From the IMG/VR virus record IMGVR_UViG_3300026512_000039, positions 1 to 36,382 of that record: a DNA stretch of 36,382 nt. One strand, 5' to 3'. The translations under genes were made by a program, and so were the position numbers. Positions 14,242 through 32,543 of this stretch are shown one piece after another (within the stretch, counting starts at the first letter, position 1; each line of letters begins with the position of its first letter). The notes beneath the pieces are model-generated. The model was not told the DNA's origin and made no database searches. It saw only the letters and a program-made list of their open reading frames with translations. The DNA is from a virus.

Positions 14242-14793
14242 CTATATTTTAGCTGTTGTTAGTTCTATTTGTTTCTGATATTTCCCTTTTTTATCCGCAT
14301 AGCTTATTAAACACTCTTCATCACTTTCCAAAAACAAAACCTGTGCTATACCTTCATTTGCATAAATCTTTGCTGGAATTGGCGTTGAGTTGGATATTTC
14401 AATTGTTACATAGCCTTCCCATTCGGGTTCAAACGGCGTTACATTTACGATTAGTCCACATCTTGCATAGGTTGATTTACCGACACAGATGGTTAATATG
14501 TTTCTTGGTATTCTAAAATACTCAATGCTTTTTGCTAAAACAAAACTATTCGGTGGAATAATACAAACATCGCCTTTAAAATCCACATAGTTTTTATCGC
14601 TAAAGTTTTTCGGGTCGACTATTGTATTATTTACATTTGTAAAAATCTTAAACTCATCGGCTATTCTCATATCGTAACCGTATGAGCTTACACCGTAGGA
14701 TATAACGCCTTTTCTTACTTGTCTGTCGGCAAACGGCTCTATCATACCTTTTTTAGCCTGTTCAATAATCCATTTGTCGGATTTAATACTCAT
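14242..14793 (-). CDS. dcd: dCTP deaminase
   Basis: 183 aa, the normal length of Dcd. It carries the family motifs in order: [17 protein letters not shown] near residues 30-45, [33 protein letters not shown] (about residues 112-131), [10 protein letters not shown] containing the conserved Glu corresponding to the catalytic one, and the closing [13 protein letters not shown]. It converts dCTP to dUTP (or dUMP in bifunctional forms), feeding dTMP synthesis. The neighbouring ThyX-like and thioredoxin-like genes make a nucleotide-metabolism group. Its ATG overlaps the upstream gene by 4 nt. Confidence 0.93.
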
Positions 14794-15446
14794 TTTTCCT
14801 CCTTCTTAATAATTTCGTTAATATTAGGTATTACTTTTTTTAACTCCTTTAACCGCTTAATACCTATTGTGCGTCCAGCTTTTGTGTCAGTTATTATAGA
14901 TGAAATAGCGTGAGTTCTGCCTGTTAAATAAACAGACAGTTGTTGTTTAGTTTCAAACTTATGTTTTTTCATATATTCTTTTACTTTCTTATTAAACTTA
15001 TCAATATTAATCTTTACTGTTTGCTTTGTTTTAATCTCTTTTAATTTTGATTGTATCAATTTTTTGTTTGAAGTATATGACATTATTTTATCGTATATAT
15101 ATGGCGACATTTTGCCTTTTATTAAGGCTTGTCTGACTGCCGCCGCACTATCTCTATGCTCTTCATTAACCTTAAATAATTGATACATACTAATACCTTT
15201 ATCCATAACTTTTTGCAACGCTCGTTTTGCTTCATTGAATTTCTTTTGTGATACCGTAGGTTTTTCTTTTAACTTACACAAAACCTTTTGATTTTTTTCT
15301 TTAAAATAAGTTTTGCTATAAATTTTAAAAGCGTCCTCATCTGTAAATCCGTGTTTGCGTTCAGTGTTTTTTATCATTTCCATAGCTTGTTTATCTGTCA
15401 TACCGCAAGCTTCGAAAACCTTTATTGTATGTTCTATAATATTCAC
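14790..15446 (-). CDS. Hypothetical protein, 218 aa, possible DNA-binding
   Basis: Basic, Lys-rich, helical protein with no recognised family. Residues about 88-125 ([20 protein letters not shown]) and especially about 168-205 ([20 protein letters not shown] then [19 protein letters not shown]) look like helix-turn-helix units, so DNA binding is plausible. It has 4-nt overlaps with both neighbours (ThyX-like and dcd), placing it inside the nucleotide-metabolism group, yet it shows no nucleotide-enzyme motif. The region 1-60 has two short helical hairpins ([20 protein letters not shown]). Confidence 0.6.
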
Positions 15447-17478: not shown

Positions 17479-18255
17479 TTAAAACGATATTTCGTCTAAC
17501 ATTTTTATGAAACGAGCATACCATTTACCTGTTTTATCTTCTTGTATAACTATATTTTGCAATTTCTTAACAATTGTATTTTCTGTATCTTTTGCAAAAT
17601 AATAAGTCCATTTTCCTTTTTTATCTTTCTTTATAATAGCATTTTCTAATTTTTGTATATCTACATTTGGAATAGTTTTTGCAAAATAATAACACCATTC
17701 TCCTGTTTTATCTTTTTCAATTACTACATTTTGCAATTTTTTAATGTCTGCTCCTTTAATATCTTTTGCAAAACGATAAATCCATCTTCCATCTTTATCC
17801 TTTTTAATTACTGCATTTTGTAATTTTTTTATATCTGCATCTGGAATATATCTTGCAAACCAATAACACCATTTTGCTTCTTTTTCTATTACTGCATTTT
17901 GTAATTTTTTTATATTTGCATTTGGTATATCTTCTGCATAATTATAAACCCATTCACCTGTCTTATCATATTTAATCAATTCATCTAAAGTTTCCACTTT
18001 TCTTATTACTTTTATTTTATCACCAACTGCTTTATCATTATATTTATCAACGACGTTGATGTCTACAAGTGCATACTCTGTGCTTTCTGATACAGGATAA
18101 TAATCTACAGTTTCTGATATATCGAAATTTGCTGATGCGTGAAAACCGTATTCACATATTTTAACTTGTTCTTTTGGTATCTCATAAGTTTTACCGACTT
18201 CATATTGAAATCCTTTACATACTAACCCTTTATCAAATGCTTTAATGGTAATCAT
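17479..18255 (-). CDS. DUF7666-like domain plus tandem 29-residue repeats
   Basis: 258 aa. Residues about 1-85 match a small phage domain with LVCKGFQYEVGKTYEI, then VKICEYGFHASANFDISETV and YYPVSESTEYALV (DUF7666-like). Residues 97-239 are five repeats of about 29 residues (97-125, 126-152, 153-181, 182-210, 211-239; the second is 27) with consensus DKxGxWxYxFAKxI, then ADIKKLQNAVIEK, followed by a partial sixth. The repeats should stack as a helical solenoid, a protein-binding surface. The protein ends LDEISF, similar to the SSB-type tail of the primase encoded just upstream. Its target is unknown; an early host-takeover or defence-blocking role is a guess. Confidence 0.6.
   Translation of the reverse strand: MITIKAFDKGLVCKGFQYEVGKTYEIPKEQVKICEYGFHASANFDISETVDYYPVSESTEYALVDINVVDKYNDKAVGDKIKVIRKVETLDELIKYDKTGEWVYNYAEDIPNANIKKLQNAVIEKEAKWCYWFARYIPDADIKKLQNAVIKKDKDGRWIYRFAKDIKGADIKKLQNVVIEKDKTGEWCYYFAKTIPNVDIQKLENAIIKKDKKGKWTYYFAKDTENTIVKKLQNIVIQEDKTGKWYARFIKMLDEISF
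17482..17967 (-). repeat. Coding tandem repeats of 87 bp
   Basis: DNA encoding the 29-residue repeats of the preceding gene. Units are diverged at the DNA level but keep AAxTTGCAxAATGxxxTxAT-type segments encoding KKLQNAVI. One unit is 6 bp shorter. Confidence 0.75.
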
Positions 18256-20473: not shown

Positions 20474-20683
20474 CTACTCTATAATATCAGCGATTTTTAC
20501 CCCTAAAACATCAGCTATTTTATTAGCTGTTTTGATTCTAATACTACCTCTATGAAAGTAATTATAAATTGTAGCTTCGGATAGATTAAGCTTTTTTGAT
20601 AAATCGTGTATAGTCATATTCTTTTCAATAAAGAGTTTTCTAATCTTATCCTTATCTATCTTTACACTTGAAAAATTAGCCAT
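20474..20683 (-). CDS. Cro/CI-type HTH protein
   Basis: 69 aa from the ATG at 20683; GGGGG lies 6 nt upstream, and an in-frame GTG at 20686 is less well placed. Residues about 20-68 are a full helix-turn-helix of the Cro/CI (HTH_3/XRE) kind: KNMTIHDLSKKLNLSEATIY, then IRIKTANKIADVLGV. No dimerisation or protease-like domain, so it is a Cro-sized regulator. It lies between the VRR-NUC nuclease and primase genes, 200-400 bases downstream of the phased 18-bp repeat array, which makes it a candidate binder for that array or for the control region. Confidence 0.85.
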   Translation of the reverse strand: MANFSSVKIDKDKIRKLFIEKNMTIHDLSKKLNLSEATIYNYFHRGSIRIKTANKIADVLGVKIADIIE

Positions 20684-20963
20684 CACATACCCCCTTCAAA
20701 ATATTTTTAACATCATCGACACTCCTTGCGATAAAGGCAGTGCCGTTACATTTAATAATAGTTTCAATAAACTTTGTTTGCAACGCCGTTGGTCTACCCT
20801 TTTCGTTTTTAACTTCAATTGCTACAAACTTCCCATTACAACAACACAAAATATCTGAAATGCCTGCTGTTGAATAAGCACCCTGCGCCACTTTAAAACA
20901 GTGGCAACAGGGTAAAGTTTTAAGATAAGCTAAAATCTTGCGTTGAATGTTTTTCTCAAGCAT
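20676..20963 (-). CDS. VRR-NUC domain nuclease
   Basis: 95 aa, a stand-alone VRR-NUC. The core is GISDILCCCNGKFVAIEVKN (about residues 34-53): Asp, Glu and the E-V-K triad of the PD-(D/E)xK fold. GRPTALQTKFIETI and a final TAFIARSVDDV complete the pattern, and a conserved Glu is present near the N-terminus (MLEKNIQRKIL). Stand-alone phage VRR-NUC proteins are structure-specific nucleases, often next to SNF2-type helicases and primases, as here. An AGGAG site lies a few bases before the ATG. It is separated from ssb by the phased repeat array. Confidence 0.9.
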   Translation of the reverse strand: MLEKNIQRKILAYLKTLPCCHCFKVAQGAYSTAGISDILCCCNGKFVAIEVKNEKGRPTALQTKFIETIIKCNGTAFIARSVDDVKNILKGVCDG

Positions 20964-20982
20964 AATTTACACTCCTAACATC

Positions 20983-21126
20983 TGGCTGTCTTCATTAGCG
21001 TGGTTCACTTTTTTCGTATGGTTGTCTAACCGCTTATGGTTCACTTATTGCCTTTGGTTGTCTTGCGTATTTTAGTTCACTTAAACTCTCTGGTTACCTA
21101 TCAACTCTTGGCTCACTTCTGTCTAA
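20983..21126 (-). repeat. Eight direct repeats with exact 18-bp phasing
   Basis: On the plus strand a conserved 9-mer starts at 20983, 21001, 21019, 21037, 21055, 21073, 21091 and 21109: exactly 18 bp apart, each followed by 9 variable bases. The copies are TGGCTGTCT, TGGTTCACT, TGGTTGTCT, TGGTTCACT, TGGTTGTCT, TAGTTCACT, TGGTTACCT and TGGCTCACT. Two subtypes (TTCACT and TTGTCT) mostly alternate, giving a 36-bp super-period. The array fills the only sizeable gap in the early operon, between ssb and the VRR-NUC gene. The strand given is that of the operon. It looks like an iteron or RNA/protein binding array. Confidence 0.9.
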
Positions 21127-21488
21127 AACGGTATATCTTCTTCACTACCGTTATTTTGTTTCGGTTTCTGATTATTTCCCTTTAAAAACTGAAAACCCTC
21201 TAATATTATAGTGGTTTTATGCTGTTTCTTGCCTTCGCTGTCTTCCCATTCATCTCGTTTAAGTCTGCCTTCACAATACAATGGGTCGCCTTTGCTAACA
21301 TACTGTGATATTAGCTCTGCTTGCTTGCCAAAAGCTACTATACTTGCGAAATAGGTTTCCTCGCTGTCTTTACGTTTAGTGTTTATGGCAAGTGTAATAT
21401 TAGTTATTGCCACACCGTTTTTGCTTTGCCTTAACTCTGGTTCTCTTACTACATTACCAATCAACAAAACTTTGTTTAAATTAGCCAT
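21123..21488 (-). CDS. ssb: Single-stranded DNA-binding protein
   Basis: 121 aa. OB-fold SSB of the bacterial type: MANLNKVLLIGNVVREPELR at the start, GVAITNITLAINTKRKD, TYFASIVAFGKQAELISQYV, KGDPLYCEGRLKRDEWED and HKTTIILEGFQFL, then a short Gln/Asn/Lys linker and the acidic tip SEEDIPF that recruits replication and repair partners. Shorter than E. coli SSB (178 aa) because of the linker. It coats single strands for the ERF annealase and primase-helicase made from the same operon. Its start lies inside the end of the 55-aa gene. Confidence 0.95.
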   Translation of the reverse strand: MANLNKVLLIGNVVREPELRQSKNGVAITNITLAINTKRKDSEETYFASIVAFGKQAELISQYVSKGDPLYCEGRLKRDEWEDSEGKKQHKTTIILEGFQFLKGNNQKPKQNNGSEEDIPF

Positions 21489-21648
21489 TTATAACCTCCA
21501 TTTGATATTTTATTGCTTCAGTTAAACTTTTGAAAACCTTATCTGTAGTTACAAGTTGTTCACCTGTATCCACTAAATAACCGTTATCGTTAATTCCAAC
21601 GATATTACCGCTGACAATCCAATCATTTACAATTACTTTACAGTTCAT
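21481..21648 (-). CDS. Small hypothetical protein, 55 aa
   Basis: A 55-aa frame (starts MNCKVIVNDWIVSGNIVGIN, ends IKYQMEVING). Its ATG overlaps the TGA of the ERF gene (ATGA) and its TAA overlaps the start of ssb, with the ssb ribosome-binding site (GGAGG) inside its last codons. This chain of overlaps fits coupled translation from erf to ssb. The protein looks like a small beta-rich fold with a C-terminal helix (KSLTEAIKYQ); not recognised. Confidence 0.65.
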   Translation of the reverse strand: MNCKVIVNDWIVSGNIVGINDNGYLVDTGEQLVTTDKVFKSLTEAIKYQMEVING

Positions 21649-22292
21649 TTTGCTTCCTCAACTTTCATAGTTTTTATGGCTTTGTAAACTTCTGTTGCCT
21701 TTTCTTTATCGTTTATCTCTTCAAGCGTCTTAAAGCCGTGCATTTCTAATACAATTTTTAAAGCGTTATCTGATATATTGCGTTCTTTTATTAGTTTGTT
21801 TGTTAGCTCTAAAAATTGCTTGTTATCCCACTTTTCGTTTTTTTGTTTCGTTTCCTTTTTTGGTATATCTTTTTTTACTTTATCCTGTGTCTCTGTATTA
21901 GTTTCGTCTGGGTCTTGATTGTCATCAAGCAAGAACAGCCCTGATAATGCGTATTTCCTTGCATAACTGCTTGATGCTCCCGTTACCTGCGCAACATCCA
22001 TACCCTTTTTAATCTCTGGTTCTCTCGCAAAAGCTGATACAGCTATACTCTCTCCATTATACATAAACGTTGCTGTTGCCTTAACATAGATACGGTCATT
22101 AACAATAACCATATCATCAGCAACAATAAGGTTAAAATTTAATTCCTGTTGCAACTTTTTAACGGCTTCAAATATATCTTCCAACGAACGATATTTGTAA
22201 CCGCCAAAACTGTTATATTTGTTTTTAGGAACGTTAAGTTTTGATTGAACTTCAGCTAAAACGTCGTAAATCGTTTTCTTTTTTTCAGGCAT
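21645..22292 (-). CDS. ERF-family single-strand annealing protein
   Basis: 215 aa. The ERF superfamily core is clear: LAEVQSKLNVPKNKYNSFGG then YKYRSLEDIFEAVKKL, VKATATFMYNGESIAVSAFA, and GASSSYARKYALSGLFLLDD, with QDPDE (about residues 103-130). The C-terminal part from about residue 140 is a charged linker plus a small helical domain (NISDNALKIVLEMHGFKTLE), as in other Erf-like recombinases. It would anneal complementary single strands, for genome circularisation, concatemer formation or recombination, working with the SSB encoded 1 gene downstream. Start supported by a GGAGG site. Confidence 0.93.
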   Translation of the reverse strand: MPEKKKTIYDVLAEVQSKLNVPKNKYNSFGGYKYRSLEDIFEAVKKLQQELNFNLIVADDMVIVNDRIYVKATATFMYNGESIAVSAFAREPEIKKGMDVAQVTGASSSYARKYALSGLFLLDDNQDPDETNTETQDKVKKDIPKKETKQKNEKWDNKQFLELTNKLIKERNISDNALKIVLEMHGFKTLEEINDKEKATEVYKAIKTMKVEEAK

Positions 22293-24916: not shown

Positions 24917-24974
24917 GTGTTTTTTTGTTTTTTTTGAAATTTTTCTGTGCAGGGTATCTTTTTTTAGTTGCACA

Positions 24975-25120
24975 AAAAATAGATAAAGGTTAATAAAATA
25001 AAATATTGTAAAATAAATGAAATGAAGGTTAGTAAAAATGTAAAATAAAAGTAGTTGATATTTGTTAAAATAAAATTAATAAAATAAAAGAATATGAAAT
25101 AAGTTAAATAAATGTTTATT
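24975..25120. other. Very AT-rich stretch between box clusters
   Basis: About 145 bp made almost only of A and T with a few G, with recurring AAAATAAA words. It lies between the first two boxes and the 25125 cluster. An easily melted stretch next to iteron-like boxes is the layout of a replication origin unwinding element; this is inference. Confidence 0.45.
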
Positions 25121-25199
25121 TTTTGTGCAGGCTGTGCAGGGTTGTGCAACCTACCTTGCACATAGAAAAACCGCATAGAGACAAGGAAAATGGGGATTG

Positions 25200-25320
25200 T
25201 GTAAGAAATAGAGAATATATTCCTTTAGTTTGTAGAAAAGAAAAATAGAAATAGTGTATATAGGATAGAATAGAGAGAGGGAAAAAAGAGAGAAAAAAAG
25301 GGAAAAGGTATAGGAAAAAC
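25200..25320. other. Purine-rich tract
   Basis: About 120 bp in which the plus strand is mostly A and G (for example GAATAGAGAGAGGGAAAAAA near 25267-25286, and AAAAAAAGGGAAAAGG), separating the left and right box clusters. No gene is visible. It could matter for DNA structure (triplex, R-loop) or simply be compositional drift in a non-coding region. Confidence 0.4.
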
Positions 25321-25560
25321 CCTGTTTTGCTGCACAAAATACTATATATTGCCAAAAAATCCTATTCTGACGCCGTTTTCGGTGTGTAGTTTTTGTGCAA
25401 CCTACCCTGCACAACCCTGCACACATTGCACAAAATATTGCACACTTTTCATTTTTTGTTGTTTCTATGCCGTTTTTCGCTGTGCAGGGTTTGTGTATAT
25501 TTTGTGCAGTGTTTTGTGCACACCCTGCACACCCTGCACACATTGCACAGCTTGTACATT

Positions 25561-28194: not shown

Positions 28195-28671
28195 ATGAGT
28201 TGTCCTTTTAATAGAGATGTATATATTGGAGACCCATTTTTAGATTGGTTAGGTTCAACAACAGGTAAACCGTTAAGTTATTATGAAGGTAGATATAAAA
28301 AGAAAAAAACAGAAACAACAAATACTACATCAAAGCCTGAAGGTGTTACAGTTTCAACAAATGATACATCAGGTAGTTGGGGTTTTACTTCACAAGGTGC
28401 AAATATAAATTATAGTAATACTGCAAATAATAATGTGTCAAATAATAATTATAGTATGTTTAGAAGTAGAAATGCTAATACTAATACTAATATCAATAAT
28501 AAAGGTTCACTAACACATAATGTTTTTAAGAGTGGATATAAGAAATTACCTTTGCCAAATTATAATATGAAAAAATTACCATTACCAAATTATAATATGA
28601 AAAGATTACCATTACCAAATTATAATATGAAAAGATTACCTTTGCCATACACTATAGGTGGTAAACAATGA
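28195..28671 (+). CDS. Asn/Thr-rich protein ending in decapeptide repeats
   Basis: 158 aa, not recognised. Starts MSCPFNRDVYIGDPFLDWLG; the middle is Thr/Ser/Asn-rich and probably disordered. The C-terminus is KLPLPNYNMK repeated three full times plus a partial fourth (KLPLPNYNMK, KLPLPNYNMK, RLPLPNYNMK, RLPLPY). The neighbour upstream contains KKLPKP, so the two may be related and bind the same partner. AGGAGG lies 6-7 nt before the ATG; its end overlaps the portal start by 4 nt (ATGA). A head-associated tether is a guess from context. Confidence 0.55.
   Translation: MSCPFNRDVYIGDPFLDWLGSTTGKPLSYYEGRYKKKKTETTNTTSKPEGVTVSTNDTSGSWGFTSQGANINYSNTANNNVSNNNYSMFRSRNANTNTNINNKGSLTHNVFKSGYKKLPLPNYNMKKLPLPNYNMKRLPLPNYNMKRLPLPYTIGGKQ
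28543..28656 (+). repeat. 30-bp coding tandem repeats (3.8 copies)
   Basis: Units at 28543-28572, 28573-28602, 28603-28632 and partial 28633-28656, nearly identical (AAATTACC, then TTGCCAAAT or TACCAAAT, then TATAATATGAAA), encoding the KLPLPNYNMK decapeptides. The high DNA identity suggests recent expansion, and copy number may vary between isolates. Confidence 0.85.
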
Positions 28672-30287
28672 ATAAGATAAATGGAACTCATATAGTTCAA
28701 GAATACGATACGCTTGCGGCTAAACGCTCAACAATGGAAGGTATATGGAATGATGTAGAGAAATATTGTATGGCTGGTGTAAATCCTAACGATAATACAA
28801 CAGCGACTAAAGCATATACACTTAAAAAGGATATTTACAATAATACAGCGTTTCGTTCGTCTGCCATACTTGCGTCGGGTTTATACTCTCATTTAACTAA
28901 TCCAAGCTCTGATTGGTTTATGCTTGCGGCTAATAATGTAAATGAAGATAAAGGTTTTCAAGATTGGTTAAATAGTTTAGATATAGTAACTAAATACGTT
29001 CTATTCAATAGTAACTTTTATACAACAATGGCTATGGTTTATGAGAACTTTGTTCATTATGGTGTAGCATTGTTATATAGTGAATTTGACCCAATGAATG
29101 TTATCAAGTTTAGTTCATATCATCCAAGAAATTTTGTTTTTGATGAAGATGTTTATGGTAAGGTAACTAAAGTTCTTATATTATTTAAACTAACAGCAGA
29201 AGAAGCGGTAGAAAAGTTTGGTAATGCCGTAAGTGATAAGATTAAAAAAGCACTTGAAAGTAACTCTCCAGAGAATAAGAATAAACGGTTTGATTTTATT
29301 TTGTATGCTCATAAAGTGCGTAATAAAGATGGAACGGTTATGACAGAAGATGTGTATGTTGAGAAAGAAAGCAAGAAAATAGTATCTCAACAAATACACA
29401 ATACGCCAGAGTTGCCGTATATAATAGCACGTTGGAGTAAAAAGAATAATTATCTATATGGTTCGTCGCCATCAATGGTGGCATTGCCTGATGTTAAAAC
29501 ATTAAATAGGATAGATAAATCTGTAACTGAAGCATTAGAAGCGGCAGTGCATCCGCCGATGTCATTGCCGTATGATGGTTATATTGAGCCTATTTATTTA
29601 ACGCCTGGTGGTTTAAATTATAGATTAACGTCAGACCCGAAGGATAAGGCAGAGCCATTATATACTGTAGGTGATATATCGGCAGGTATTAAGGCTAAAG
29701 AAGAGGTAACGCAAAATATACAAGAAGCGTATTTTGTAGACTTATTTATGATGTTGCAAGATAATACGATGACAGCAACAGAAGTTATGCAAAGGGCTCA
29801 AGAAAAGATGTTATTGCTTGGGACTGTGGTTGGTAGAATTACGCACGAATTGCTAACGCCGTTAATACGTAGGGTATTGGACATAATGTTTAAGTATGGT
29901 ATAGTTGCCAATCCGTTTAATATAAATCCGTATGGTGCTTTGGATATTCATTATTTATCACCGTTAGCACAAGCACAAAAAGCGGGTAAATTCAATGGTA
30001 TGTTACAAACTATGAATACGGCGTTACAAATAGCACAGCTTAAGCCTGAAATACTTGACAATATAAATACTGATTACTTCATTAGGGAAATAGGTAATTT
30101 ACTATCTGTTCCATCGCCTATGTTTGTTGATATGGATACAGTTAATAATGAGAGAGAGCAAAGAGCTAAAGCTATTGAGCAACAACAAAAAGCTCAAGCA
30201 TTACTTGATAATGCAAAGGCTATCAAACAGTCAAGCGGTGCTCAAAAAGATGTTGCTATGGCTAAAAAGATAGAGCAGGGAGGGTAG
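28668..30287 (+). CDS. Portal / head-tail connector protein
   Basis: 539 aa, the size of T7 gp8-type connectors. Family features: the N-terminal IVQEYDTLAAKRSTMEGIWN region, AFRSSAILASGLYSHLTNPS then SDWFM, a central LPYIIARWSKKNNYLYGSSP, TLNRIDKSVTEALEAAVHPP, the GGLNYR/ISAGIKAKEE region, NTMTATEVMQRAQEKMLLLG, and a Gln-rich C-terminal helix. The dodecameric portal sits at one capsid vertex as the docking site for terminase and tail. It follows the two low-complexity genes and precedes the Bbp19-like and scaffold genes. Confidence 0.94.
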   Translation: MNKINGTHIVQEYDTLAAKRSTMEGIWNDVEKYCMAGVNPNDNTTATKAYTLKKDIYNNTAFRSSAILASGLYSHLTNPSSDWFMLAANNVNEDKGFQDWLNSLDIVTKYVLFNSNFYTTMAMVYENFVHYGVALLYSEFDPMNVIKFSSYHPRNFVFDEDVYGKVTKVLILFKLTAEEAVEKFGNAVSDKIKKALESNSPENKNKRFDFILYAHKVRNKDGTVMTEDVYVEKESKKIVSQQIHNTPELPYIIARWSKKNNYLYGSSPSMVALPDVKTLNRIDKSVTEALEAAVHPPMSLPYDGYIEPIYLTPGGLNYRLTSDPKDKAEPLYTVGDISAGIKAKEEVTQNIQEAYFVDLFMMLQDNTMTATEVMQRAQEKMLLLGTVVGRITHELLTPLIRRVLDIMFKYGIVANPFNINPYGALDIHYLSPLAQAQKAGKFNGMLQTMNTALQIAQLKPEILDNINTDYFIREIGNLLSVPSPMFVDMDTVNNEREQRAKAIEQQQKAQALLDNAKAIKQSSGAQKDVAMAKKIEQGG

Positions 30288-30533
30288 ATGATTGACCAAA
30301 AAGCGTTAGTTAGTAGGATTTTTGACGGTAAAGATGGTAAAGAGTTTGACAAATTATTGCGTAGGATATGCGGAGTTGATAGCTTAACCATTATGAACCC
30401 AGACCCTTACTTAACTTATTTCAATGAAGGCAAACGGTTTGTATATAATTATTTAGAAAAAATGAAGGAGGGCAAGTTAGATGGAAGCAGACAATCCACA
30501 GTTGCAAGAACCGACGACAACGACGGAGAATAG
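30288..30533 (+). CDS. Bbp19-like small protein
   Basis: 81 aa. Pattern IFDGKDGKEFDKLLRRICGV then YLTYFNEGKRFVYNYLEKM, as in the short Bbp19-type domain of Bordetella phage BPP-1 and relatives, encoded between portal and scaffold/capsid. Function not established. The ATG follows the portal stop directly, with GGAGGG just upstream. The last 53 bases overlap the scaffold start in another frame; the overlapping C-terminus (GSRQSTVARTDDNDGE) looks unconstrained. Confidence 0.7.
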   Translation: MIDQKALVSRIFDGKDGKEFDKLLRRICGVDSLTIMNPDPYLTYFNEGKRFVYNYLEKMKEGKLDGSRQSTVARTDDNDGE

Positions 30534-31326
30534 TCCGAATGATGGCGGTGGTAATGGTAATGTATCTCCACAGCAAATATCTCCAGAACAAATATTTGGA
30601 GAATATGCAAATGAACCAAGCATACAGAAGTTTAAAAATCCGCAGGATTTAGCGAAAAGTTATCTTAATCTTGAAAAGCTTTTAGGTAAACAGCGTATAC
30701 CGATACCAGAAAAACCAGAAGATTATGAGGTAGTTTATGATGCTTTGGGTAGACCACAAGACCCAAATGAGTATGAAATACCCGAAGTATTAGCTAAAGA
30801 AATATATCAAGGTAACGATGAAGCATTAAATAATCTTAAAGGTATGTTGCATAAATTAGGTTTAAACAAGCAACAGGCAAGTGAGTTGTTAAATTGGTAT
30901 ACGGAAGATACTATTGCGGCAAAGCAACAGTATGAAGCAATGGCTAATCAAGAAATGGAAAAAACTGTTCAAGCATTGCAACAGGAATGGGGAGATGCGT
31001 TTGAAGAGCGTATGCAGAAGGCTTCAGCTGTTTACAATCAGTTTAGTGATGAAACAAAAGCATTGATAGACCAAAGCGGATTGGGTAGAAATAAAGAGTT
31101 TATAGATTTTATGTATAAAATGGGTAATTTAACTATCGATGGCAATAACTTTATAGACAATCCGAATTCATTACAGATTAAGGTTGAAGATGCTAAAGCA
31201 GAGTTGTCAAGAATAATGGGTGATAGAAATCATCCGTATTACGATAAGTATCACCCAGAACATAATAACGCAGTTAAGGCAGTAGAAGATTTATATAAAA
31301 TAATTTATGGCAAAGAAAATACTTGA
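30481..31326 (+). CDS. Capsid scaffolding protein
   Basis: 281 aa, acidic. N-terminal 40 residues are Pro/Thr/Asn/Gly-rich and disordered; the middle holds FKNPQDLAKSYLNLEKLLGK, IPEKPEDYEVVYDALGRP then DPNEYEIPE, and a long helical zone (AANQEMEKTVQALQQEWGDA-like) with GNLTIDGNN after it. This is the usual scaffold of phages with portal-scaffold-capsid order. It would guide assembly of the prohead and be removed before packaging. GGAGG lies about 10 nt before the ATG. Its TGA is part of the following promoter's -35. Confidence 0.85.
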   Translation: MEADNPQLQEPTTTTENSPNDGGGNGNVSPQQISPEQIFGEYANEPSIQKFKNPQDLAKSYLNLEKLLGKQRIPIPEKPEDYEVVYDALGRPQDPNEYEIPEVLAKEIYQGNDEALNNLKGMLHKLGLNKQQASELLNWYTEDTIAAKQQYEAMANQEMEKTVQALQQEWGDAFEERMQKASAVYNQFSDETKALIDQSGLGRNKEFIDFMYKMGNLTIDGNNFIDNPNSLQIKVEDAKAELSRIMGDRNHPYYDKYHPEHNNAVKAVEDLYKIIYGKENT

Positions 31327-31354
31327 CAACACAAATAGAATTTTATAGTATAAT
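31323..31354 (+). promoter_or_regulatory. Intergenic promoter after scaffold gene
   Basis: TTGACA (31323-31328) with two possible -10 elements: TAGTAT (31346-31351) at 17-bp spacing, or TATAAT (31349-31354) at 20 bp. The -35 overlaps the scaffold stop codon. Transcription would start near 31358-31362 and meet a strong terminator about 100 bases on. Confidence 0.65.
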
Positions 31355-31359
31355 TATAG

Positions 31360-31462
31360 ATTTAGGCTTTTCCTTTTCCTTTTCCTTTTCATTAACCCTC
31401 GGTAGCACCGATTTCTTGTCGTAACGCCTCCGTAGGCGGGAGAAATTCCCGCCTATTTTTTT
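31360..31462 (+). ncRNA. Predicted small RNA of about 100 nt
   Basis: The unit between the promoter at 31323 and the terminator at 31433-31462 has no coding frame of note. It begins with a 23-nt pyrimidine tract of TTTTCC repeats (31368-31390), then a small hairpin (CGGT-AGC-ACCG), then CGCCT/AGGCG, which competes with the terminator stem. It may be a discrete phage small RNA or an attenuator leader. CCTTTT is complementary to the AAAAGG part of many Shine-Dalgarno sites in this genome. Confidence 0.5.
31433..31462 (+). terminator. Strong intrinsic terminator before the capsid gene
   Basis: TAGGCGGGA (31433-31441) pairs perfectly with TCCCGCCTA (31447-31455) around the loop GAAAT, followed by seven T (31456-31462). 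It lies between the scaffold and capsid genes, 12 bp before the -35 of the capsid promoter, and so insulates capsid expression from the upstream transcript, partly or fully. Confidence 0.92.
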
Positions 31463-31473
31463 GTATTATATAC

Positions 31474-31502
31474 TTGACAAAGTAATTTATTTGATATATA
31501 CT
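31474..31502 (+). promoter_or_regulatory. Capsid gene promoter (sigma70 type)
   Basis: TTGACA (31474-31479), 17-bp spacer, TATACT (31497-31502). Predicted start near 31509. A dedicated near-consensus promoter for the capsid gene would give the high dose needed for the major virion protein. Confidence 0.9.
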
Positions 31503-31508
31503 ATATGT

Positions 31509-31649
31509 AGTAAACTATTGTAGGATAACTGTATCCTCTACAGCCCTACATTATTTCGGTTTACTGTTAGCAGACCTTCCATAGTGAAGACAATCTGTAG
31601 GTATAGGCACTATGTCTAACTACAAAAAATAAAATAAGGAGATTGTCTT
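31509..31649 (+). promoter_or_regulatory. Structured 5' leader of the capsid mRNA
   Basis: About 140 nt. First domain: three nested helices, AGTAAAC/GTTTACT (31509-31515 with 31559-31565), TGTAGG/CCTACA (31519-31524 with 31545-31550) and CTGTA/TACAG (31529-31533 with 31539-31543). Second domain: CATAGTG/CACTATG (31580-31586 with 31608-31614). The loop of this second helix contains AAGACAATCT (31587-31596), the exact complement of AGATTGTCTT (31640-31649), which runs from the end of the Shine-Dalgarno AAGGAG (31636-31641) to the base before the ATG. The leader can therefore cover its own ribosome-binding site. Confidence 0.7.
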
Positions 31650-32543
31650 ATGGGTTATATTGATACCACGTTTGTAAAACAGTATTCCGATAATATAATG
31701 TTTGCAGTTCAGCAAAAGGGTTCGAGATTTAGGGGTGCTGTTAGGGAAGAGGTTTTGAGAGGCGAAGAGGGATTCTTTGATACCATCTCAAGTGTATCAG
31801 CCGCACAGGTAACTGATGATTTTACAGCTGGGAATATGCATCCAACGACTGTTTATACTGATACAGAATTTACGAGAAGAAGAGTTTCTCAAGTATTTTT
31901 GAGATGGGCAGATTTAATTGAGAGTAAAGATGTTGCAAGAATGCTTGTTGACCCAACGTCGCATTACGTTCAGGCTGGTTCTTGGGCTATCACAAGGGGT
32001 TTAGATGACCTTATTATAGCCGCCGCAACAGGAACAGCTTATGCTGGCAAGACAGGAACAACAGCCGTTTCTTTGCCATCAAGTAATATAATTACTGATG
32101 GTGGAAAAGGTATGACTATTGATAAGTTGATACAGGCTAAAGAAATACTTGACGCCGCAGATGTTGACCCTGAAGAACCAAGATTTTTAGCAATGACTTC
32201 AAGACAGTTTAGTGATTTGCTAAAAACTACAGAAGTAACGAGTGCTGATTATGATACAGTTAAAGCTCTTGTTAGAGGAGAGATAAATACATTTTTGGGC
32301 TTTACGTTTATTAGAAGTGAGAGATTAGCTACCAAGACAGCAGAAGATACGAAAGGCACAGATAATATTTGTTTTGCCTGGACGTATGAAGGCTTGTTAC
32401 TTGCTATGACCGAAGCACCGAAAGTTAGAGTAACAGAGAACCCAGAGAGGAACTTTGCAACGGAAGTATTTATTGAGATAGGTGCTGGTGCAACAAGGAT
32501 GGATGAAAGAAGGGTGGTTGAAATAGATTGCGAGAGACTATAG
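31650..32543 (+). CDS. Major capsid protein
   Basis: 297 aa. Matches the BPP-1 (Bbp17)-type major capsid family, an HK97-fold group: GYIDTTFVKQYSDNIMFAVQ at the start, RFRGAVREEVLRGEEGFFDT, RRVSQVFLRWADLIESKDVA, then AGSWAITRGLDDLIIAAATG, ILDAADVDPEEPRFLAMTSR, and INTFLGFTFIRSERL near the end, closing RMDERRVVEIDCERL. It forms the icosahedral shell with the scaffold encoded just upstream. AAGGAG lies 8 nt before the ATG and may be hidden in the leader structure. Own promoter and upstream terminator indicate separate high-level expression. Confidence 0.93.
   Translation: MGYIDTTFVKQYSDNIMFAVQQKGSRFRGAVREEVLRGEEGFFDTISSVSAAQVTDDFTAGNMHPTTVYTDTEFTRRRVSQVFLRWADLIESKDVARMLVDPTSHYVQAGSWAITRGLDDLIIAAATGTAYAGKTGTTAVSLPSSNIITDGGKGMTIDKLIQAKEILDAADVDPEEPRFLAMTSRQFSDLLKTTEVTSADYDTVKALVRGEINTFLGFTFIRSERLATKTAEDTKGTDNICFAWTYEGLLLAMTEAPKVRVTENPERNFATEVFIEIGAGATRMDERRVVEIDCERL

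Follow-up and report, generated by a model that had tools for sequence, protein, structure and literature searches.

Dual-repeat TIGR arrays consist of alternating repeats of 8-12 nt with 9-nt spacers between them, which together form 36-nt units (Faure et al. 2025, PMC12045711), and they begin with a 5'-truncated edge repeat and end with a 3'-truncated one. Their boxes may diverge if the changes covary, the arrays typically contain 5-15 units, and a rho-independent terminator after the array is typical but not universal (PMC12045711). Experiments in the same study showed that the Tas protein binds the repeats and is needed for the cutting of pre-tigRNA within the edge repeats to 36-nt tigRNAs, and that the two spacers of a tigRNA base-pair with adjacent 9-bp halves of the target, one on each strand, with no PAM. 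The emergence, maintenance, and expansion of TIGR arrays were listed there as an enigma. Since these arrays were discovered starting from Tas proteins, arrays without an adjoining Tas would have been missed. In archaeal viruses, mini-CRISPR arrays are known to occur without cas genes (Medvedeva et al. 2019, PMC6858448).

The window analysed here, a stretch of 36,382 nucleotides, is the IMG/VR virus record of a podovirus-like phage, and the repeat element between its ssb and VRR-NUC genes is almost certainly a TIGR array. TIGR arrays are already known. A literature search that covered few subscription papers and preprints found no description of a stand-alone array without Tas in a phage whose genome is essentially complete, nor of whole-spacer replacement between sister phages.

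Genomic setting and architecture of the array

The window carries no terminal repeats. The contig of a near relative (L010) extends ~600 bp beyond the right end of the window and then continues into the left end at 100% identity; the ~600 bp in between form a single continuous open frame inside one virion gene. Because this contig joins both window ends, the phage genome can be regarded as essentially complete at ~37.0 kb, a closure that relies on the contig of the relative and not on the phage's own sequence. The virion proteins are closest to those of HTVC010P-type pelagiphages at only 30-47% identity and are therefore too distant to name the host. For the portal and major capsid proteins (window 28668-32543), the nearest are from HTVC010P-like Pelagibacter phages, at about 30% and 45% identity.

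The array fills the principal gap in the early operon, the interval between ssb and VRR-NUC, as the earlier note on this DNA had proposed. The features are given below in the direction of transcription, with the array elements assigned from the sequence.

21123-21488, minus strand: ssb (Pfam PF00436, E 4.7e-29), directly upstream of the array and in the same direction
21109-21117, minus strand: edge repeat 1, AGTGAGCCA, the first repeat past the ssb stop
21100-21108, minus strand: spacer A1, AGAGTTGAT
21091-21099, minus strand: loop repeat 1, AGGTAACCA
21082-21090, minus strand: spacer B1, GAGAGTTTA
21073-21081, minus strand: edge repeat 2, AGTGAACTA, with box C CTA instead of CCA
21064-21072, minus strand: spacer A2, AAATACGCA
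21055-21063, minus strand: loop repeat 2, AGACAACCA
21046-21054, minus strand: spacer B2, AAGGCAATA
21037-21045, minus strand: edge repeat 3, AGTGAACCA
21028-21036, minus strand: spacer A3, TAAGCGGTT
21019-21027, minus strand: loop repeat 3, AGACAACCA
21010-21018, minus strand: spacer B3, TACGAAAAA
21001-21009, minus strand: edge repeat 4, AGTGAACCA
20992-21000, minus strand: spacer A4, CGCTAATGA
20983-20991, minus strand: loop repeat 4, AGACAGCCA
20974-20982, minus strand: spacer B4, GATGTTAGG
20970-20973, minus strand: 3'-truncated edge repeat AGTG, the array end (AGTGTAAATTATG, identical in the sister phage L178)
20676-20963, minus strand: VRR-NUC or Holliday-junction-resolvase-like nuclease (PHROG 93, E 4e-24; Pfam Hjc and VRR_NUC matches weak), directly downstream of the array
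20474-20686, minus strand: small Cro/C1-type HTH gene (Pfam HTH_26, 9e-14), next in the operon after VRR-NUC

The array thus runs from 21117 to 20970 on the minus strand as four 36-nt units, each in the order edge repeat, spacer A, loop repeat, and spacer B, followed by a truncated edge repeat. On this strand the consensus edge 9-mer is AGTGAACCA and the consensus loop 9-mer is AGACAACCA. The eight 9-mers start at 20983, 21001, 21019, 21037, 21055, 21073, 21091, and 21109 with a constant step of 18 bp, exactly where the earlier note had placed them and far beyond chance. Agreement per column within the 9-mer is 8, 7, 8, 6, 8, 4, 4, 8, and 8 of 8, and the intervening nine columns are mostly variable. 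When all positions and periods of 7-60 were scanned, the array was the top-scoring phased block in the whole window; the two-repeat pattern at two or fewer mismatches has six matches in the window, all inside the array, where dinucleotide shuffles give 0.05 on average. The two subtypes do alternate as reported, with variants in copies 1 and 8 (TGGCT), copy 6 (TAG), and copy 7 (TGGTTACCT). A ninth copy, absent from the earlier note, is truncated and in phase: AGTG on the minus strand at 20970-20973 lies just before the VRR-NUC start, so that the array end reads AGTG, TAAATT, and then the ATG of VRR-NUC.

All eight spacers are 9 nt long and the phase is exact. AG...CCA boxes are present in both edge and loop repeats, and the box D dinucleotide is AG, compared to UG in TasR arrays. 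At the 5' end the array begins with a full, not truncated, edge repeat, and at the 3' end it closes with the truncated edge AGTG. No reading frame is open through the 144 bp on either strand. The earlier note was right that conservation here is at the nucleotide rather than the peptide level. An Rfam search gave no meaningful match, and the self-folding of the RNA (z 0.05) is as expected for dual-repeat TIGR arrays. No rho-independent terminator was detected downstream of the array in 20600-21700; the array passes into the gene that follows it in the operon.

The likeness to the arrays of Faure et al. lies in the alternating 9-nt edge and loop repeats ending in CCA, the 9-nt spacers, the 36-nt unit, the truncated terminal edge, and a covarying pair specific to the edge repeat. 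Unlike typical TIGR arrays, the window array has four units, no terminator, and AG as box D, and in contrast to those of Faure et al. it has no tas in its genome and sits between ssb and VRR-NUC in an early operon. A CRISPR array was considered and ruled out, because two alternating 9-nt repeats with 9-nt spacers are found instead of a single repeat of ~25-36 nt and spacers about as long.

Similar arrays beside Tas genes and the absence of a recognisable Tas from the phage

A first, looser repeat-pattern scan of viral contigs also caught collagen-like coding repeats, with 9/27-bp steps and open frames; with these removed, a clean set of non-coding arrays was left, some of which slip by one or two bases. 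Coding repeats of the collagen-like (GNQ) and SEP types also fit the DNA pattern TGGTTNNCT at 18-bp steps, and pattern searches for TIGR arrays therefore need an open-frame filter. A stricter, repeat-only pattern yielded 21 viral contigs, 13 of which encode a protein that matches NF052498 (TIGR_Tas_endo) above the curated NCBIfam cut-off, compared to 0 of 20 control viral records; one further contig has a weaker match. In an all-versus-all protein comparison of 13 array loci, a single family with an IS110/Nop-like signature was common to nine of them, and all six members that were scanned match NF052498, the "TIGR-Tas system RNA-guided endonuclease", above the curated cut-off. In 9/9 loci compared, the gene of this family shares its strand with the arrays, the nearest of which is at most ~100 bp away. 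A profile built from nine of the family's sequences matched the solved TasH in the PDB at 1.6e-53 and chain 9mty at 1.2e-37; the latter, a protein of 331 aa described by its depositors as having an IS116/IS110-type C-terminal domain, is presumably the published TasR.

The repeats of the window array are common to arrays that adjoin Tas genes: the consensus edge and loop 9-mers of one of the other loci (L067) are identical to those of the window, and two more (L199 and L203) are close. Moreover, across 30 array loci, in which related phages were counted separately, positions 3 and 6 of the edge repeat form U-A in 250 cases, C-G in 87, U-G in 20, and C-A in 18, so that a U-A, C-G, or U-G pair is present in 357 of 375 edge repeats. 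Since Y at one of these positions and R at the other were part of the definition of the edge class, only the coupling, not the totals, is informative. Loop repeats show no such covariation.

In the large phages L148 (G003), L198 (G019), and L203 (G024), tens of kilobases or more separate the Tas gene from the arrays found by pattern, which need not be the nearest ones. An array and its Tas need not adjoin, as these three cases illustrate. At some points the phase of these arrays shifts by 1-2 bases.

No Tas was found in the window, in L010, or in the contig of the sister phage by Pfam Nop (PF01798), by NF052498, or by our own nine-sequence profile, and the element is therefore filed as a TIGR array and not as a TIGR-Tas system. 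Pfam Nop misses Tas even in array-bearing viruses where NF052498 recognises one, so only the latter and our own profile are informative. Relative to the window, the sister phage differs in small ORFs, which encode about 100-140 aa and are not Tas. The sole unknown early protein longer than 200 aa (14790-15446, 218 aa) gave a low-confidence fold model (pLDDT 53) that was not used. The phage is very probably without Tas in the true sense, and a Tas too diverged for recognition is a possible occupant of its genome. Six other loci (L041, L048, L102, L195, L197, and L132) were tried as orphan arrays and are unconvincing, all being contig fragments; in L195 and L197 the contig ends close to the array, and the jumbo phage L148, which bears a Tas, is a relative of L041, L048, and L102.

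Replacement of spacers in the sister phage

The homologous locus of a close relative, the sister phage L178, is known from a 4.4-kb contig, which holds the sole recognised real array among 27 genome-contig matches. It agrees with the window in DNA identity by 96.2% in VRR-NUC, 98.1% in the HTH gene, and 88.0% in ssb. In L178 the array is likewise phased at 18 bp, its edge and loop repeats retain their 9-mers, and AGTGTAAATTATG closes it unchanged, with five repeat copies compared to eight in the window. None of the spacers is shared; their mean agreement of 2.67/9 over all pairs is at the level of unrelated sequences. Differences at third positions amount to 9/96 in VRR-NUC and 30/122 in ssb, and since neutral drift at this neighbouring rate cannot explain the divergence of the spacers, they have been replaced. 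Such complete spacer replacement, with repeats, phase, and flanks kept, is the signature of a guide array. The comparison with relatives for which the earlier note had called is thus answered in L178, where the phase is kept while the spacers change. Its observation that the 18-nt period is in frame with ssb holds for the window and fails in L178, and the array is therefore not an extension of ssb.

The locus with its array has been seen in two phages only, that of the window and L178. A pattern spanning the array end and the VRR-NUC start found no further sister phages in IMG/VR, and the more distant VRR-NUC neighbours L011-L016 showed no array. The L178 contig is binned in a Desulfurellales MAG (JAMOPP010000011.1), which is possibly a hint of the host or possibly a mis-binning. 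In 25 genomes from the phylum of this MAG, the host link being the binning of one 4.4-kb contig, no Tas was found above the cut-off; the only matches lie far below it and are probably IS110-type transposases.

The pair formed by the window and L178 gives a direct view of spacer replacement in TIGR arrays, and the window provides a clear case of a Tas-less TIGR array in an essentially complete phage.

Possible use of the array and alternative explanations

The reading that we prefer, and consider likely, is that of a stand-alone four-unit dual-repeat TIGR array in a phage without recognisable tas, the guides of which are used in trans; the use in trans, taken on its own, is somewhat more probable than its opposite. 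The array would be co-transcribed with the early operon genes, because it lies on the same strand of a packed operon with no terminator. A Tas from the host, a resident prophage, or a co-infecting virus might then bind the edge and loop repeats, the array RNA would be cut within the edge repeats to 36-nt tigRNAs, and the two 9-nt spacers of each tigRNA could base-pair, one per strand, with an 18-bp DNA target on a rival mobile element. By analogy with the cas-less mini-CRISPR arrays of archaeal viruses, the array would most likely serve in competition with other mobile elements. Of the roles suggested in the earlier note, the tandem RNA-binding site comes closest: the repeats are expected to be bound as RNA, by Tas as guides and not as a cis regulator of downstream genes.

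Targets were composed of spacer B and, after it, the reverse complement of spacer A, an order derived here from the published 8-nt 3' overhang and the C-5 rule, and also in the reverse order. At two or fewer mismatches, no spacer target was found in the window or in L010 in either order, nor was mutual targeting seen between the sister phages. The composite target of unit 4 was met in four IMG/VR contigs, which represent two independent and unrelated places, about the level of chance. The virus-borne mini-CRISPR arrays without cas (PMC6858448) resemble the window array as short guide arrays in a virus with no effector and in that close viral relatives differ in their spacers; the window array differs from them in its TIGR repeats, its paired 9-nt spacers, and the lack of any mutual targeting found between sister viruses.

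On a broader scale, Tas-less mini-TIGR arrays might circulate as stand-alone weapons, with whole sets of guides exchanged between nearly identical phages and put to use by a Tas from elsewhere, and with a mechanism that replaces dual spacers while sparing the neighbouring genes, a generalisation that we put forward tentatively, at slightly less than even chances. The ssb to VRR-NUC locus can be amplified from environmental samples, as a readout of guide turnover in populations and as a way to look for natural targets.

Alternatively, the phage could transcribe TIGR repeats to sequester or misload a hostile Tas. Racrs, RNA anti-CRISPRs that mimic CRISPR repeats (PMC10651486), are a precedent for such a decoy; like the window array they are phage-encoded mimics of guide repeats with no effector genes, and here too the repeats occur without an effector gene, in an otherwise complete phage. 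A Racr, in contrast, is a solitary repeat, whereas the window array keeps full units with exact 9-nt spacers several times over and its spacers have been replaced. A decoy has no need of spacers that differ wholly between sister phages, and we judge this explanation unlikely. Quite unlikely, too, is a relic, the non-functional remnant of a once complete TIGR-Tas locus after the loss of tas. The array is small and there is no tas, and the repeats are slightly decayed (the CTA box in edge 2 and AGGTAACCA in loop 1). Drift would be expected in a relic, yet the repeats and the 18-bp phase are intact in two phages whose flanking genes are 2-12% apart, and the spacers diverge far beyond neutral mutation.

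The earlier note had favoured replication-origin iterons or a loading site for the primase-helicase, in keeping with direct repeats inside the replication gene cluster. These roles are now very improbable: the cumulative GC skew, for which an inflection at the array had been suggested, has its only turns near 12 and 25 kb and none at 21 kb, and a separate iteron-like cluster coincides with a skew minimum at 24946-25540. Furthermore, the subtypes alternate, the copy number is eight in one phage and five in the sister, half of each unit is unconserved with spacers wholly replaced, unlike iterons, and identical repeats adjoin Tas genes in other viruses. A hexapeptide-coding repeat or decayed ssb extension is scarcely credible, for although 18 bp equal six codons and collagen-like (GNQGNQ) and SEP-type repeats fit the same DNA pattern and make up most of its other matches, no frame is open through the window array, the ssb frame is lost in L178, and related arrays slip by 17, 19, 35, or 37 bp.

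The cluster at 24946-25540 comprises ten TGTGCAGGGT-like decamers on both strands, six of them exact, compared to a shuffle mean of 0.84. Located where the GC skew is lowest, in the stretch from which the early and late operons diverge, it is a more plausible candidate than the array for origin iterons or a regulator region. Across this stretch the sequences of L010 and the window differ. Tandem coding repeats are also found elsewhere in the window. A gene at 17479-18255 with a DUF7666 N-terminus contains ~87-bp tandem coding repeats with the motif KKLQNxVIxKD, and a small gene upstream of the portal gene carries a 30-bp tandem coding repeat (KLPLPNYNM) at 28536-28647.
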